A stretch of 64,000 bases of DNA, from the NCBI GenBank assembly GCA_000798955.1, contig JTLC01000041.1, positions 1 through 64,000 of the forward strand, given 5' to 3'. Under the pieces are notes generated by a model. That model saw nothing but the letters and a program-made list of their open reading frames with translations, had not been told where the DNA came from and ran no database searches. Numbering within the stretch: position 1 is the first letter of the stretch; every line of letters begins with the position of its first letter. Source of the stretch: Firmicutes bacterium ZOR0006. GTDB taxonomy: Bacteria > Bacillota_I > Bacilli_A > Culicoidibacterales > ZOR0006. Of the stretch, positions 1,142-59,084 are shown in pieces. Made by a program: the position numbers and the translations under genes.

Positions 1142-2665
<1,524 letters not shown>

Positions 2666-4404: not shown

Positions 4405-5205
4405 TTATTCGACAAGTTTAAAATACTCTTCCATTGTTAACCCAGACTGCGTAATTGCTGTCGCTAATTCTGTGCCAACATAGCGTAAATGCCATGGTTC
4501 ATATTGATAACCGGTAATCGATTCTTTTCCTTGAAGAAAGCGAATAATAAAACCATATTTATGCGCATGCTCTTTCAACCACTGACCTGTTGAGGTCTCT
4601 TCAAAACAGATTTCCAAGTAACACTCATAATCACTACCGACTAAATCTACCGCGAGACCTGTTTGGTGTTCGCTCTGTCCAGCCCGTGCACTATATGTAT
4701 TTGCTTGCTCAATTCCTGAAGCCTCAGCATAGCTCGAAAATAAATTTTCTTGTAAGTCATACGAGCGGTATCCACTTCCTAAAACAAGCTCAATGCCCTC
4801 ATTTGCAGCTGCTTGTGCCATTGTCTCCAAGGCCGTTGCCGTTGCTTGCCGTACATATTGCTCATCATCAGAAATATTTCCACGCATCGCAATCGTTGGT
4901 ACAACTAAATCATTAGGTACATATTCTGCCGCTAATGGTCGTTGTTTATTGATAATTGCTGTCAAGCTTTCCGGTGTATCGATATCATAACTTGAAGTTG
5001 CTCCTTCAGTTACTGGCTCAACCGGTGTTGGTGTTAATGGAATTTCAACACCACTCCCCTTTTCACTTCCGTTACTAATTAATACTCCCCCAATCACGAG
5101 TATCAGTACAATCACGAGCACAATCACTGGCGTCTTTTTTATCCGCCGGCGCTTTTTATCGTTTAAATGCATACTTTTCACTCGTGGCTTCTGAATGGGT
5201 TTCAT
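4405..5205 (-). CDS. Membrane-anchored VanY-type D,D-carboxypeptidase (M15B)
   Basis: 266 residues. A basic N-terminus (KKRRRIKK) precedes one membrane helix (about residues 28-46); a Pro/Thr-rich linker leads to an extracellular peptidase domain (about 95-260). The zinc site is intact: SEHQTGLAVDLVG supplies His and Asp, and YEPWHLRYVG supplies the catalytic Glu and third His. Such enzymes trim the terminal D-Ala from peptidoglycan stem peptides. The start overlaps the stop of the upstream 74-residue gene by one base (TAATG), implying translational coupling. Its anchor segment closely resembles that upstream protein. It closes an operon with an FtsX-type ABC exporter, so it may act with, or be controlled by, that transporter. 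No VanA/VanH/VanX genes are nearby, so the sequence does not point to a vancomycin-resistance cluster. Confidence 0.88.
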   Translation of the reverse strand: MKPIQKPRVKSMHLNDKKRRRIKKTPVIVLVIVLILVIGGVLISNGSEKGSGVEIPLTPTPVEPVTEGATSSYDIDTPESLTAIINKQRPLAAEYVPNDLVVPTIAMRGNISDDEQYVRQATATALETMAQAAANEGIELVLGSGYRSYDLQENLFSSYAEASGIEQANTYSARAGQSEHQTGLAVDLVGSDYECYLEICFEETSTGQWLKEHAHKYGFIIRFLQGKESITGYQYEPWHLRYVGTELATAITQSGLTMEEYFKLVE

Positions 5206-5429
5206 TAATTCGTCACCTTAATTGGAAAAGCATCAGTTGGTAGCGTCCCCGTTGTCGCCCCTTCAACTGGTTCTGTTGTTTCCGGTGTTTCCGGTACTGT
5301 CGTTTCCGGTGCTTTCCCCGATGTGAAAAAGAAAATTCCACCACCAATTAAAACTAAAATCAGGATGATACCGATAATAATTGGTCCCTTTTTAATTCGC
5401 TTTTTTCGATTCCCTAGATAAACTGCCAT
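5205..5429 (-). CDS. Small membrane-anchor protein, paralogous to the VanY N-terminus
   Basis: 74 residues: a basic stretch (RKKRIKKG), one membrane helix (about residues 15-36) and a short Thr/Pro/Glu-rich external tail ending EGATTGTLPTDAFPIKVTN. The sequence around the helix, RKKRIKKGPIIIGIILILVL, lines up with the start of the next gene (RRRIKKTPVIVLVIVLILVI), and both have PV.EGAT after the linker. It therefore looks like a duplicated VanY anchor without the peptidase domain. It is co-transcribed between the permease gene (12 bases upstream) and vanY (one-base overlap). No function can be assigned. Confidence 0.7.
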   Translation of the reverse strand: MAVYLGNRKKRIKKGPIIIGIILILVLIGGGIFFFTSGKAPETTVPETPETTEPVEGATTGTLPTDAFPIKVTN

Positions 5430-5441
5430 ATTTTGTACTCC

Positions 5442-7853
5442 TTATTTTTTCAATGCTTCTTGTAATGAGACGCGATTTAATGATCGTTGTGCCATTTTGA
5501 TTGAAAGGTAATAAACAACGAGCACAATCACTAATCCAATGAGCACTAATGGCCAAGAAATCCGGACTGGTAATCCCACACCAATTTCTTGTCCAATTAA
5601 ATCCGTCACATATGATACGATTTGCAACGCTGCCGGAATACTCACAAGATACGCAAGTAATACAACTGGCGTATAAATATTCAGGGCAATCGATGAAATC
5701 TCCTTCTTATTATAACCCATTACTTTCAATAATGAGATTACTTTTCGATTATCATCAACAGAAAAATTTGAAACAAGCGAAATCATAATGAGTCCTAAAC
5801 CTGCCGCAAAGCCAGTGAAAATCCCCAACATCATTGTCATTTGTTTATTTAATTGTGTCATATTTTCAACTAAATCAGCGAGTGACATTACCGATAAAAC
5901 ACCTTCTGTATCTTTTAAGTTCGCCAAATCATCTGGTGATTGCACAGAATTAAAGCTACCCGGATCATATCCAAGTAATTCATTGACAGTCTCAATATCA
6001 GTATAGGCATAATTCCCATTAAACGCATGTGTTACTGCCATAACTTCAAGATCAATCGTTTTACCATCTGCCGTTTTTGCTGTTACAACATCGCCAACTT
6101 CAATGCCAAAACCACTCTCAACAAAGGTATTAATCACAACACCATTTTCAACTTCCGCTGTAATATCACGCCCATTCACATCGAGTAAACGGTTTAACTG
6201 TGTATCTGGCATAATACCCGTTAATTCGATACTTGCTTGGCTTGAGTCAATTGACTGCAAGAAGCTTGAATCACTTGTATAGCCTTCAAAATCAACTTTT
6301 GCCATTGTCACTGGTTCTTCATCATCAGCAACACGCTCATTTGGTAATGTATATGGTTGTGTATACGTAACTTGACTATTATAGCTCGCTGCACCAAATG
6401 CATTCCCTGTGACATCATCAATCATCGTAATGAGTAAAAACGCATAATTGATTAAGATTCCTGATAAAATCGCACCAAAGAACACCATGAACAAGCGTCC
6501 ATATCCACGGCTTGCCAATGAATAACGGAATCGTTGCTTGAAGTTCAGTTTCATTTTATCAATTAATTTCGCTAGTCCATTCACATGGGTATCACTTCCC
6601 GGGCTTAATAGCCAAATTGGTTGGTGACGAAGAGCGATAAAGCTGACAAACCAACTCACAATTCCAATAATAAGCATTGGTCCAAATAAACCAATCAGCG
6701 AGCGATCGAGTAATGGTGCGATTTCAAAGGCTGGCATATTTAGCATTGCTCGTAAAGCATCAGACACTGGGTATGCCAATGCATATCCGGCCCAGTAGCC
6801 GATAAGTGCACCACCAAATCCAATCACGACTGCATATACAAAGTAGCTCATCATGATTTCAGCACGACGATAACCTAACGCTTTTAAAACCCCTATTTGC
6901 TCTTTTTCATTATTGATTTGTCGGCGAATTGTTAATGCGACCATAATTGCCGTAATTCCTGAAAGGAATGCTAACATAATCGTCGACATAACTGTGCTCA
7001 TCTCGGCACGACTCGAAAGGATGCTCACTCGTGGATTACTATCGATATCAATAATATATTGGAATTTTTCAGCATCAATTGTTTCATATTGCGCTTTTGT
7101 ATCCGTTTGATCTGTAAAAACAGCAGCATATGTCGTTTGAGCTTCTGTTGTTAAACGATCAAATTCAGCGTCACTAAAGTGAACGATAGCATCTTTATCA
7201 GCCATATAGAGTGGTGATTCCATCGAGACGATTGGGAATACTTGATCTACATCATAGACTGAAGCACTAATTGTGTATGTTTTTCCGAGAATATCATATG
7301 TATCACCGATACTTAATCCATTGGCTTTTAAAAATGGTTCATTGATGGCAACCTCGGTATCTGTTGCTGGTAATGTTCCCTGCACAACATACGGTTTATT
7401 AATTTCGGTTGGTGTCTTAATCGCTAAAAAATTATAGTCGATGTCACCAACTGTTTCACTAAACATTTTTTGCACTCGTGGCTCAAATGTAAATTCATAC
7501 TCACTTGCTAATTGCTCAGCAGCTTCATCCAAATATGGTTGGAAATCCACTTTATATTTTGTAAAAGCTTGTGAAATATCACCATTGGCTAACTCAGTCA
7601 ACGGAATCTGGTAATCTTGAATAATCTCACCTATTGTTGCTTCTGTAAGTTCAAGTTTTGGCACAAATGTAAAATCTTCTTGGTTTTGCTTCGCAAAATA
7701 GTCATCAGAACCGACATAAATAACATCATTCGAATACGTCATCATTGAATAGAGCAATGTTGACACAATAACTAATATCATCAAGCCGAGCGTTTGTACT
7801 TTTTGATTTTTTAAGCTCCGTAATGTATTGAGGAATAAACGAATCATGCCCAC
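5442..7853 (-). CDS. FtsX/MacB-type ABC transporter permease
   Basis: 803 residues with the two-FtsX-domain layout: one helix near residues 18-38, a large extracellular domain (about 45-285), three helices (about 290-415), a fourth at about 455-478, a second extracellular domain (about 490-660), then three C-terminal helices (about 665-790). LSGITAIMVALTIRRQINNE and ISLLKVMGYNKKEI are typical FtsX-domain cytoplasmic loops. These permeases do not carry substrates across the membrane in the classical way; they are mechanotransmitters or exporters of lipids, peptides and lipoproteins. The gene overlaps the ATPase gene by 10 bases, so the two form one transporter. The downstream carboxypeptidase suggests a cell-envelope role; the substrate is unknown. 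Confidence 0.88.
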   Translation of the reverse strand: MGMIRLFLNTLRSLKNQKVQTLGLMILVIVSTLLYSMMTYSNDVIYVGSDDYFAKQNQEDFTFVPKLELTEATIGEIIQDYQIPLTELANGDISQAFTKYKVDFQPYLDEAAEQLASEYEFTFEPRVQKMFSETVGDIDYNFLAIKTPTEINKPYVVQGTLPATDTEVAINEPFLKANGLSIGDTYDILGKTYTISASVYDVDQVFPIVSMESPLYMADKDAIVHFSDAEFDRLTTEAQTTYAAVFTDQTDTKAQYETIDAEKFQYIIDIDSNPRVSILSSRAEMSTVMSTIMLAFLSGITAIMVALTIRRQINNEKEQIGVLKALGYRRAEIMMSYFVYAVVIGFGGALIGYWAGYALAYPVSDALRAMLNMPAFEIAPLLDRSLIGLFGPMLIIGIVSWFVSFIALRHQPIWLLSPGSDTHVNGLAKLIDKMKLNFKQRFRYSLASRGYGRLFMVFFGAILSGILINYAFLLITMIDDVTGNAFGAASYNSQVTYTQPYTLPNERVADDEEPVTMAKVDFEGYTSDSSFLQSIDSSQASIELTGIMPDTQLNRLLDVNGRDITAEVENGVVINTFVESGFGIEVGDVVTAKTADGKTIDLEVMAVTHAFNGNYAYTDIETVNELLGYDPGSFNSVQSPDDLANLKDTEGVLSVMSLADLVENMTQLNKQMTMMLGIFTGFAAGLGLIMISLVSNFSVDDNRKVISLLKVMGYNKKEISSIALNIYTPVVLLAYLVSIPAALQIVSYVTDLIGQEIGVGLPVRISWPLVLIGLVIVLVVYYLSIKMAQRSLNRVSLQEALKK

Positions 7854-30788: not shown

Positions 30789-32729
<1,941 letters not shown>

Positions 32730-32989: not shown

Positions 32990-33255
32990 TTCAAAAAAAA
33001 CGCCCCAAGATAAAAAACTTATCTAAGGACGTAAAATTACGCGGTACCACCTTAGTTCAACAGTGATCCTGTTGCCCTTTCACCATTAACGCTGGTCAAC
33101 GACTTTTGCTTGTTTCTCACTCACAAAAGCAACTCTGGAGCCATCTTCACTTCTTTTTTTACGTTCAGTTTTCACCATCCACTGACTCTCTAGGCGTAAT
33201 CCAGAAGCTACTCTTTCCTTCTTTGTCTTTTTTTGACTTATCTTTTCATAATTAC
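32990..33255 (-). ncRNA. T-box leader, methionine type
   Basis: On the minus strand the T-box core AAGGTGGTACCGCG is clear (about 33054-33041), followed by the terminator ACGTCCTTAGAT...ATCTTGGGGCGT and a T run (to about 32990). Upstream is a Stem I-like region with GAGAGTCAGTGG; an ATG triplet at 33144-33142 in GAAGATGGC is a candidate specifier, matching the downstream metG. Uncharged tRNA-Met binding would favour the antiterminator and switch on the ankyrin gene and metG. Confidence 0.92.
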
Positions 33256-33291: not shown

Positions 33292-33302
33292 TATCTAAAT
33301 CC

Positions 33303-33404
33303 AAAAATAAAAGCTGCTTAACGCAGCTTTTATTTTTGAACTGATTTTTTTATTAGCTTTGCTCCTGTATCCCGCTAGTTTCCTAGTGAACCAATCACAA
33401 AGCT
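33303..33404 (-). ncRNA. Candidate small RNA, about 100 nt
   Basis: A near-consensus promoter (33411-33439) and a strong hairpin terminator (33309-33331) enclose about 100 bases with no open reading frame. The RNA folds as AGCTTTG/CAAAGCT closing an internal domain with a CTAG-GAAA-CTAG tetraloop hairpin, then an A-rich single strand and the terminator. SRP RNA, 6S, preQ1 and guanidine classes were checked by eye and do not match. It lies between the nitroreductase gene and the T-box. Confidence 0.5.
33309..33331. terminator. Hairpin terminator of the candidate small RNA
   Basis: AAAAGCTGC and GCAGCTTTT pair perfectly around 5 bases, followed by ATTTTTGG on the minus strand and ATTTTTGA on the plus strand, so it can work both ways. 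Confidence 0.85.
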
Positions 33405-33410
33405 CTCTCT

Positions 33411-33439
33411 ATTATAACGAGCTTAAGCAATTGTTGCAA
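33411..33439 (-). promoter_or_regulatory. Promoter of the candidate small RNA
   Basis: On the minus strand -35 TTGCAA (33439-33434), 17-base spacer, perfect -10 TATAAT (33416-33411), located after the nitroreductase stop. Confidence 0.75.
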
Positions 33440-33466
33440 CCTTTAAACCCAGTCCTTTGCTAATTC

Positions 33467-34213
33467 TTACTCTTTCAGTTCAAATCCAGCATTTTTTAAT
33501 TGAGCCACAAATTTGGGATTCACATTTTTGCTATAGAAACTTGCTGTCTTTTCAACCCATCCTGCTGTTGATTTTTGACCAGCACGATTCGCATTATAGG
33601 CTAAGATTTCAGTATCAAAATCTTGCACGGCTTTTACAAGTGACGTTTCATCATAGGTTTCAAAAAAGACTGTTGCTTCTTGTGGTAAGCGCGGTTTTGG
33701 TGTCACAAGCGTATTTGGATCCGCGTATCCCATTACTAAGCCAACAAGTGGCAGCACGTGCTGTGGTAGCCCGAGTTCTTGGCGAATTTCATCAATATGA
33801 CCGCGAATGGCACCAATTGTCACCGTTGATAACCCTAGACTTTCAGCAGCAATCATCATATTTTGTAATGCTAAGCCCCCATCAAAAAACCCTGTGACAA
33901 GTGCATCTAAATTATCTGGTTGTACGTCAATTCCGTGTGCTTGCCCAGCTAGGTCAATTCGGTGATAGTCTAAACAAATCACAAAAAAGACTGGTGCTTG
34001 GCCAATGTAGGGTTGTCCCCAAGCCCATTCCATCATTTTCGCTTTGCGTTGCTCATCTTGAATCACGACTAAACTTGTTTGCTGACCATTGATACTATTT
34101 GGTGCTAAACGATAGGCTTCAATCACCGCTTGTAATCTTTCGGCTTCAACTGGCGTTGGCAGATAGTGTCGTACTGAATGACGGTTGGAAATTGTTTCTA
34201 ATACATGATTCAT
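33467..34213 (-). CDS. NADPH-dependent nitroreductase/flavin reductase (NfsA/Frp type)
   Basis: 248 residues. SNRHSVRHYLPTPVEAERL and APNSINGQQTSLVVI are the FMN-binding N-terminal blocks of the nitroreductase fold; GGLALQNMMIAAESLGLSTVTIGAIRG is the central helix region in the NfsA/NfrA group, and PLVGLVMGYADP with KPRLPQEATVFFETY completes it. Such enzymes reduce nitro compounds, quinones or FMN using NADPH. Not part of the conserved Bacillus order here, so it is an insertion between rsmI and metG. AAAGGAG precedes the ATG. Confidence 0.88.
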   Translation of the reverse strand: MNHVLETISNRHSVRHYLPTPVEAERLQAVIEAYRLAPNSINGQQTSLVVIQDEQRKAKMMEWAWGQPYIGQAPVFFVICLDYHRIDLAGQAHGIDVQPDNLDALVTGFFDGGLALQNMMIAAESLGLSTVTIGAIRGHIDEIRQELGLPQHVLPLVGLVMGYADPNTLVTPKPRLPQEATVFFETYDETSLVKAVQDFDTEILAYNANRAGQKSTAGWVEKTASFYSKNVNPKFVAQLKNAGFELKE

Positions 34214-58792: not shown

Positions 58793-58851
58793 CTGCTTTA
58801 CCACCATTCTTTTGTTCTAAGTTTCCGGTTTTTTCCTCTAAAATGAAGAAA

Positions 58852-58874
58852 AAGACCACTGGTTGAGTGGTCTT
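58852..58874 (-). terminator. Terminator between rpmH and rnpA
   Basis: AAGACCACT and AGTGGTCTT pair around 5 bases, followed by TTTTC on the minus strand. It overlaps the rpmH stop and may limit read-through into rnpA, giving more L34 than RnpA. Confidence 0.8.
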
Positions 58875-59007
58875 AAGCTGATAATACTTTACGTCCTTTA
58901 TTACGACGAGCTTTTAATACTCGACGTCCTGCCGCTGTTGCCATACGAGCACGGAAACCATGCTTTTTGCTGCGTTTACGACTATTTGGTTGGAATGTAC
59001 GTTTCAT
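58873..59007 (-). CDS. rpmH: Ribosomal protein L34
   Basis: 44 residues, very basic: [20 protein letters not shown], followed by [15 protein letters not shown] and NKGRKVLSA, almost the full L34 consensus. GGAGG lies before the ATG. It heads the rpmH-rnpA-yidC-jag arm that diverges from dnaA across oriC, as in most bacteria. Confidence 0.97.
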
Positions 59008-59056
59008 ATGTGACACCTCCTAGGGTTGTTCTTTTTCTTGACACTACACTCTAGAT

Positions 59057-59084
59057 ATTATAACAGACTCGTTTTTTTTTGCAA
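59057..59084 (-). promoter_or_regulatory. Promoter of rpmH
   Basis: On the minus strand -35 TTGCAA (59084-59079), 16-base spacer, perfect -10 TATAAT (59062-59057). Confidence 0.7.

Follow-up and report, generated by a model that had tools for sequence, protein, structure and literature searches.

The small RNAs (sRNAs) closest to the one described here are known from three bacteria. RoxS of Bacillus subtilis is reported to protect the yflS mRNA from 5' decay, the yflS promoter element being located 44 nucleotides (nt) upstream of the start codon (PMC5419742). FasX of Streptococcus pyogenes is described as pairing at the 5' end of the ska mRNA and stabilising this mRNA (PMC4691137, PMC5419742). 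VcdR of Vibrio cholerae pairs with and represses ptsHI, also targets ptsG, treB and nagE, acts through four consecutive cytosines and encodes a 29-amino-acid (29-aa) protein (PMC8672173). In the literature searched, pairing control of ptsHI was described in Vibrio only. The locus compared with these RNAs is located on the minus strand of a 64,000-nt stretch of contig JTLC01000041.1 of Firmicutes bacterium ZOR0006 (GCA_000798955.1; hereafter the window), between a nitroreductase-family gene and the T-box leader of metG. We regard it as almost certainly a genuine, unclassified small RNA gene. Judged from its sequence, it is of the intergenically encoded, trans-acting type, non-coding and having both a promoter and an intrinsic terminator of its own; it would represent a previously unclassified RNA of a known type, the trans-acting base-pairing sRNAs. 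Its target is probably the ptsH-ptsI (ptsHI) mRNA.

The three described RNAs resemble the present one in different respects. The putative ptsHI site begins, at the predicted transcription start, 38-39 nt ahead of the HPr start codon, close to the 44 nt given for yflS in the paper cited above; RoxS uses C-rich regions, whereas the linker of the RNA described here is A-rich/AUCAGUUC, its predicted target is a different one, and Rfam gave no match. With FasX it would share pairing at a 5' end, both pairing and stabilisation being predictions in our case; FasX, in contrast, pairs via a C-rich sequence with another target, the two sequences having been compared through Rfam only. The likeness to VcdR is in the target, ptsHI, predicted here by complementarity, but VcdR encodes its 29-aa protein, whereas the present RNA has no frame of at least 20 aa on its own strand in the window.

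As shown in Table 1, the predicted RNA is composed of a 5' hairpin, a linker and a terminator. The promoter TTGCAA-17-TATAAT, already noticed on the minus strand in a first-pass annotation made from the letters alone, has 10 of 12 matches and was the top-scoring of 12 promoter-like sites in a 2-kilobase (kb) scan, for which shuffled sequences lead one to expect 5.6 sites. The closed stem described in that annotation does fold as the outer stem of the hairpin, AGCUUUGU/GCAAAGCU, followed inwards by a tandem GA/GA mismatch, an inner stem UUGGUUC/GGGAU(A)CAG with a bulged A, and a CUAG/CUAG stem with a tetraloop at the tip (CUAG-GAAA-CUAG in the window's RNA). The predicted fold of the isolated hairpin has an energy of -20.6 kcal/mol (z -5.3, lower than 200 of 200 shuffles), and that of the complete sRNA -46 kcal/mol (z -9.5). 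The GNRA tetraloop that had been pointed out is present as GAAA in the window's RNA but is not conserved, since the sister species has UCAA there. The linker stretch has a predicted unpaired probability of 0.99-1.0 in the window's RNA. The terminator was also recognised correctly in the first pass, but its length of 9 base pairs (bp) was wrong: the stem has 16 to 20 bp, 16 of which form in the consensus of the two species. In agreement with the proposed lack of a coding frame, no minus-strand frame of at least 20 aa overlapping the sRNA was found in the window.

Conservation of the locus was analyzed in the order, which was sampled by four genomes, G000 to G003. G000 is the window's genome and G001 is the other genome of the genus (contig CAMFJD010000004.1, from an uncultured Firmicutes genome bin). 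In G001 the sRNA occupies the identical position, flanked by the nitroreductase gene and the T-box (DNA search, 80% over query positions 31-149). Its promoter, TTGCAT-17-TATAAT, lies at the same place; the hexamers and their distance of 17 nt are retained, while the spacer sequence has diverged. The hairpins are identical in 42 of 48 columns, and of the six differences, four make up two compensated pairs (U-A to C-G and G-U to C-G) while the other two are in the tetraloop. The terminators are identical in 30 of 37 columns and contain two more compensated pairs, so that the whole sRNA has four compensated pairs and no broken one. When the partner columns were slid by 1-3 positions, no compensated pairs were obtained and 42-57% of the cells were paired. 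The earlier proposal of a small RNA gene of ~100 nt is thereby strengthened, as promoter, terminator and a structure with compensatory changes are all kept in G001. For comparison, 51 gene pairs from the same region agree between these genomes at 2150 of 5318 fourfold-degenerate positions (40%); against this level, the conservation of the sRNA indicates that it is under selection. The linker diverges between the two genomes except for AAAUCAGUUC, adjoining the terminator, which is identical in both.

The distribution of the RNA was examined by several searches. At Rfam gathering thresholds, only the T-box matched in the region and nothing was found for the sRNA; at permissive thresholds the best matches, sraL (24.1 bits, gathering 39) and ohsC (24.3 bits, gathering 50), stayed below threshold, and the alignments shown agree largely in the terminator. 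The statement that the RNA matches no known class was therefore upheld at both settings, no family exceeding its gathering score. A DNA search of 100 genomes gave eight with matches at E <= 0.001; the query is largely covered in G000 and G001 alone, the matches of the remaining six genomes being confined to 26 to 49 bases within or close to the terminator. The covariance search suggested in the first pass was performed with a model of the hairpin and linker built on two sequences (run with 17 pairs, two outer pairs being misplaced); applied to 4 genomes of the order, 395 of the class and 392 of the phylum, it found the sRNA in G000 and G001 only, and in no other genus. A match in G003 (E 0.84) was rejected, as it reads as coding-like sequence. 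An exact-pattern scan of a species-genome collection, from which the window's own genome may be omitted, gave one match, the G001 contig; neither a pattern scan of viral contigs nor blastn against phages and plasmids gave a match to the sRNA. Other genes, and no T-box, occupy the 3-4 kb upstream of metG in the genomes G002 and G003. The sRNA thus appears to be specific to the genus.

In order to find a possible target, a single 10-mer of the linker, AAATCAGTTC, was used as a query; it was the only one tried, and was picked as conserved and unpaired with no target known beforehand. Its complement, GAACTGATTT, has 7 occurrences in G000 and 8 in G001, the sRNA locus included, compared with 4 and 3 for the reversed control. 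Beyond the sRNA locus, the only orthologous pair of sites, by comparison of the printed contexts, is in the ptsHI leader (L042 266 in G000 and L033 525 in G001). In both genomes this site starts 7 nt past a TAAAAT box, which in turn follows TTGAAA or TTGCAA with a 17-nt spacing. The distance from the start of the site to the ATG is 39 or 38 nt, and the gene concerned codes for a protein of 88 aa identified as HPr (NCBIfam NF010352); the next gene encodes enzyme I of the phosphotransferase system (PTS; TIGR01417). The site therefore coincides with the predicted start of the mRNA, and it ends about 10 nt or more ahead of the Shine-Dalgarno sequence. The predicted duplex of linker and leader has 12 pairs and -14.9 kcal/mol in G000, and 15 pairs, one of them G-U, and -20.3 kcal/mol in G001. 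The complementarity is seen in two species, and binding would follow from it. The site is absent from the printed stretches of the ptsH leaders of G002 and G003, two genomes that gave no hit above noise with the RNA model.

Several controls address the possibility of a chance match. The 51 orthologous leaders share a mean of 3.8 10-mers per 80-nt leader, from which we estimate that a given 10-mer would match some shared leader by chance with a probability near 1%, assuming 1,900 genes. Additionally, the linker columns were shuffled jointly across both species, and each shuffle was tested against the leaders. None of 20,400 and none of 281,622 such tests was as good in both species as the weaker observed energy (-14.7 kcal/mol in that test), while 9 reached -13 and 54 reached -12; by our own extrapolation, the chance of an equally good match would be a few per thousand per genome. 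With the ptsH leader, an equally good match was obtained for 0 of 2000 shuffled linkers, and the best energies of the true linker on the 51 neighbouring leaders, -9.8 and -11.2 kcal/mol, are far short of that on ptsH. A looser, leader-restricted 7-mer search gave 23 places in G000 and 24 in G001, with ptsH alone in common by eye; of these 47 places, 30 loci were examined and the remainder were compared as printed only. No second orthologous leader target emerged from the 10-mer and 7-mer searches of both genomes. The glmU gene was considered and rejected, because the partial site AACTGATTTTC in its G001 leader is absent from the G000 counterpart.

The following mechanism is proposed. The hairpin may serve as a stabilising or a protein- or ligand-binding domain, while the unpaired linker would pair with the first 12-15 nt of the ptsHI mRNA and leave its ribosome site uncovered. 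Since the site is at the predicted 5' end of the mRNA and leaves the Shine-Dalgarno sequence free, direct ribosome blocking is unlikely. The duplex would instead make the 5' end double-stranded and might shield the mRNA from 5'-end decay, which would raise HPr and enzyme I, a direction suggested by the analogy with RoxS-yflS and FasX-ska. Hfq (PF17209) was detected in 0 of 4 order genomes and in 5 of 14 control genomes, and CsrA (PF02599) in 0 of 4 and 3 of 14, respectively. An Hfq-dependent sRNA and a CsrA-sequestering RNA (sponge) are ruled out by these absences from the order genomes searched. We consider it reasonably likely that the RNA acts in trans as an sRNA independent of Hfq and CsrA, pairing with the ptsHI 5' end, most likely in a protective manner; for 5'-end protection as its action, which is argued by analogy, our confidence is about half. 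If true, this would be a new family of sRNAs whose target, HPr and enzyme I, is specific and can be tested, and a compact example of chaperone-free 5'-end control in an order whose searched genomes lack Hfq and CsrA. HPr and enzyme I also steer catabolite repression in this bacterial group.

It is important to mention the points that weigh against this interpretation. Four compensated pairs were also reached by 39 of 500 shuffles, a weak control with two sequences, and as the sRNA is present in only two genomes, covariation has little power. Conserved intergenic stretches are common between the two genomes: of the 29 gaps in the window that measure 60 nt or longer, 17 have a blastn match in G001. 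Part of the G001 linker is predicted to form weak pairs within the sRNA (unpaired probability mostly 0.3-0.4), which makes its accessibility less clear there, and the terminal C of the pairing stretch doubles as the first base of the terminator stem. Moreover, the null leaders belong to 51 genes from one region and not from the whole genome.

The same pairing evidence would also fit an sRNA that represses ptsHI, for example by RNase III recruitment or leader destabilisation, and VcdR represses ptsHI by pairing, as reported in PMC8672173. Repression is nevertheless unlikely in our opinion, as the site is at the predicted extreme 5' end and off the Shine-Dalgarno sequence, unlike the sites of start-site blockers. 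A duplex of 12-15 bp is also short for RNase III. It is similarly doubtful, to about the same degree, that the ptsHI match is coincidental and a protein or metabolite is bound by the hairpin, which has a tandem GA, a bulged A and GGGA and AGGAG motifs. Its near-invariance against 40% neutral identity does exceed what a mere stabilising hairpin needs, but an equally good orthologous leader match by chance is improbable (0/281,622), and a function as CsrA sponge is out in the order genomes searched. The hairpin resembles the ribonucleic antiterminator (RAT), the LicT/SacY/GlcT PTS antiterminator element, in being a small conserved hairpin with a link to sugar uptake, which is putative for the sRNA; by eye, however, it is unlike the genus's own element of this kind. 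The only CAT_RBD antiterminator gene of the genus is preceded by an ordinary-looking GTGTTACTGATTCGATCAGGCATTACC element (L061 about 5130-5230, L062 about 5855-5960), presumably of the RAT type, and since its 3' half differs from that of the sRNA hairpin, the hairpin was rejected as a RAT. An RNA combining both functions, in which the near-invariant hairpin would bind a metabolite or protein reporting sugar status and gate the linker, whose protection of the ptsHI 5' end would set the level of the whole PTS without Hfq or CsrA, is quite improbable at present.

The two remaining explanations concern the neighbouring genes. No terminator-like site was found between the nitroreductase gene and the sRNA in the 2-kb scan, so read-through from the former into the latter is possible, and the nitroreductase mRNA would then end at the sRNA terminator. 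That hairpin and terminator are nothing but the 3' untranslated region and terminator of this mRNA is nonetheless very unlikely, given that the 17-spaced promoter hexamers are kept in G001 although the spacer diverges, and that the sRNA is kept although the G001 nitroreductase gene, with 74% identity, has an in-frame TAG. The first-pass annotation had further suggested that read-through from the sRNA promoter regulates metG. Indeed, some 10 nt separate the end of the sRNA terminator from the T-box promoter-like site, but we consider such regulation highly improbable, as the 16-20 bp terminator is strong and has compensatory changes in its stem, the T-box has this separate promoter-like site, the pairing stretch points to ptsHI, and no alternative pairing kept in both species was found by sequence inspection. 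A switchable terminator was rejected for the same reason: in G000 the 5' strand of the outer stem could pair with a terminator arm, a possibility that G001 lacks.

Table 1. Coordinates of the predicted sRNA gene and of its neighbours in the window.
Feature	Position	Strand	Basis or remark
sRNA gene	~33404 to 33302, about 100 nt	minus	promoter, hairpin, linker and terminator
sRNA promoter TTGCAA-17-TATAAT	33411..33439	minus	TTGCAA 33439-33434, TATAAT 33416-33411; predicted transcription start near 33404
5' hairpin, 50 nt	33355..33404	minus	fold and conservation in G001
Outer stem of the hairpin	33404-33397 with 33362-33355	minus	fold
A-rich linker pairing stretch AAAAAUCAGUUC	33338..33349	minus	final 10 bases are AAAUCAGUUC; between hairpin and terminator
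Intrinsic terminator CAAAAAUAAAAGCUGC-GUUAA-GCAGCUUUUAUUUUUG	33302..33338	minus	scan and fold
Nitroreductase-family gene, upstream neighbour	33467..34213	minus	PF00881, E 3.2e-23
T-box leader, downstream neighbour	33022..33232	minus	RF00230, 140.5 bits; G001 counterpart 130.2 bits
T-box promoter-like site	33291-33263	minus	scan
Small ankyrin-repeat open reading frame (ORF), 74 aa	32751-32975	minus	PF12796; between T-box and metG
metG	30789-32726	minus	in T-box operon

Some minor observations were made on the surrounding genes. The in-frame TAG of the G001 nitroreductase gene (L002, G001:C4, about 2172-2190, minus strand) may reflect a decaying gene or an assembly error, the adjoining sRNA being kept. 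Because the ankyrin-repeat ORF is located between the T-box and metG, the T-box would control this ORF first; the ORF is also present in G001 (L002 942-1142). Just upstream of the G000 ptsHI promoter there is a sequence TGAAAACGCTTAAA (L042 203-216), which we take to resemble a catabolite-repression site and which is not obvious in G001. In G000, the antiterminator gene is also preceded by a terminator-like hairpin, and it adjoins a run of genes that we assume to function in sugar-acid catabolism. Finally, a 225-nt stretch of the window (58843-59065) has 95.6% identity to G001 and contains a 47-aa ORF, which presumably encodes ribosomal protein L34 (rpmH); it adjoins the ribonuclease P protein and dnaA genes, an ordinary arrangement.
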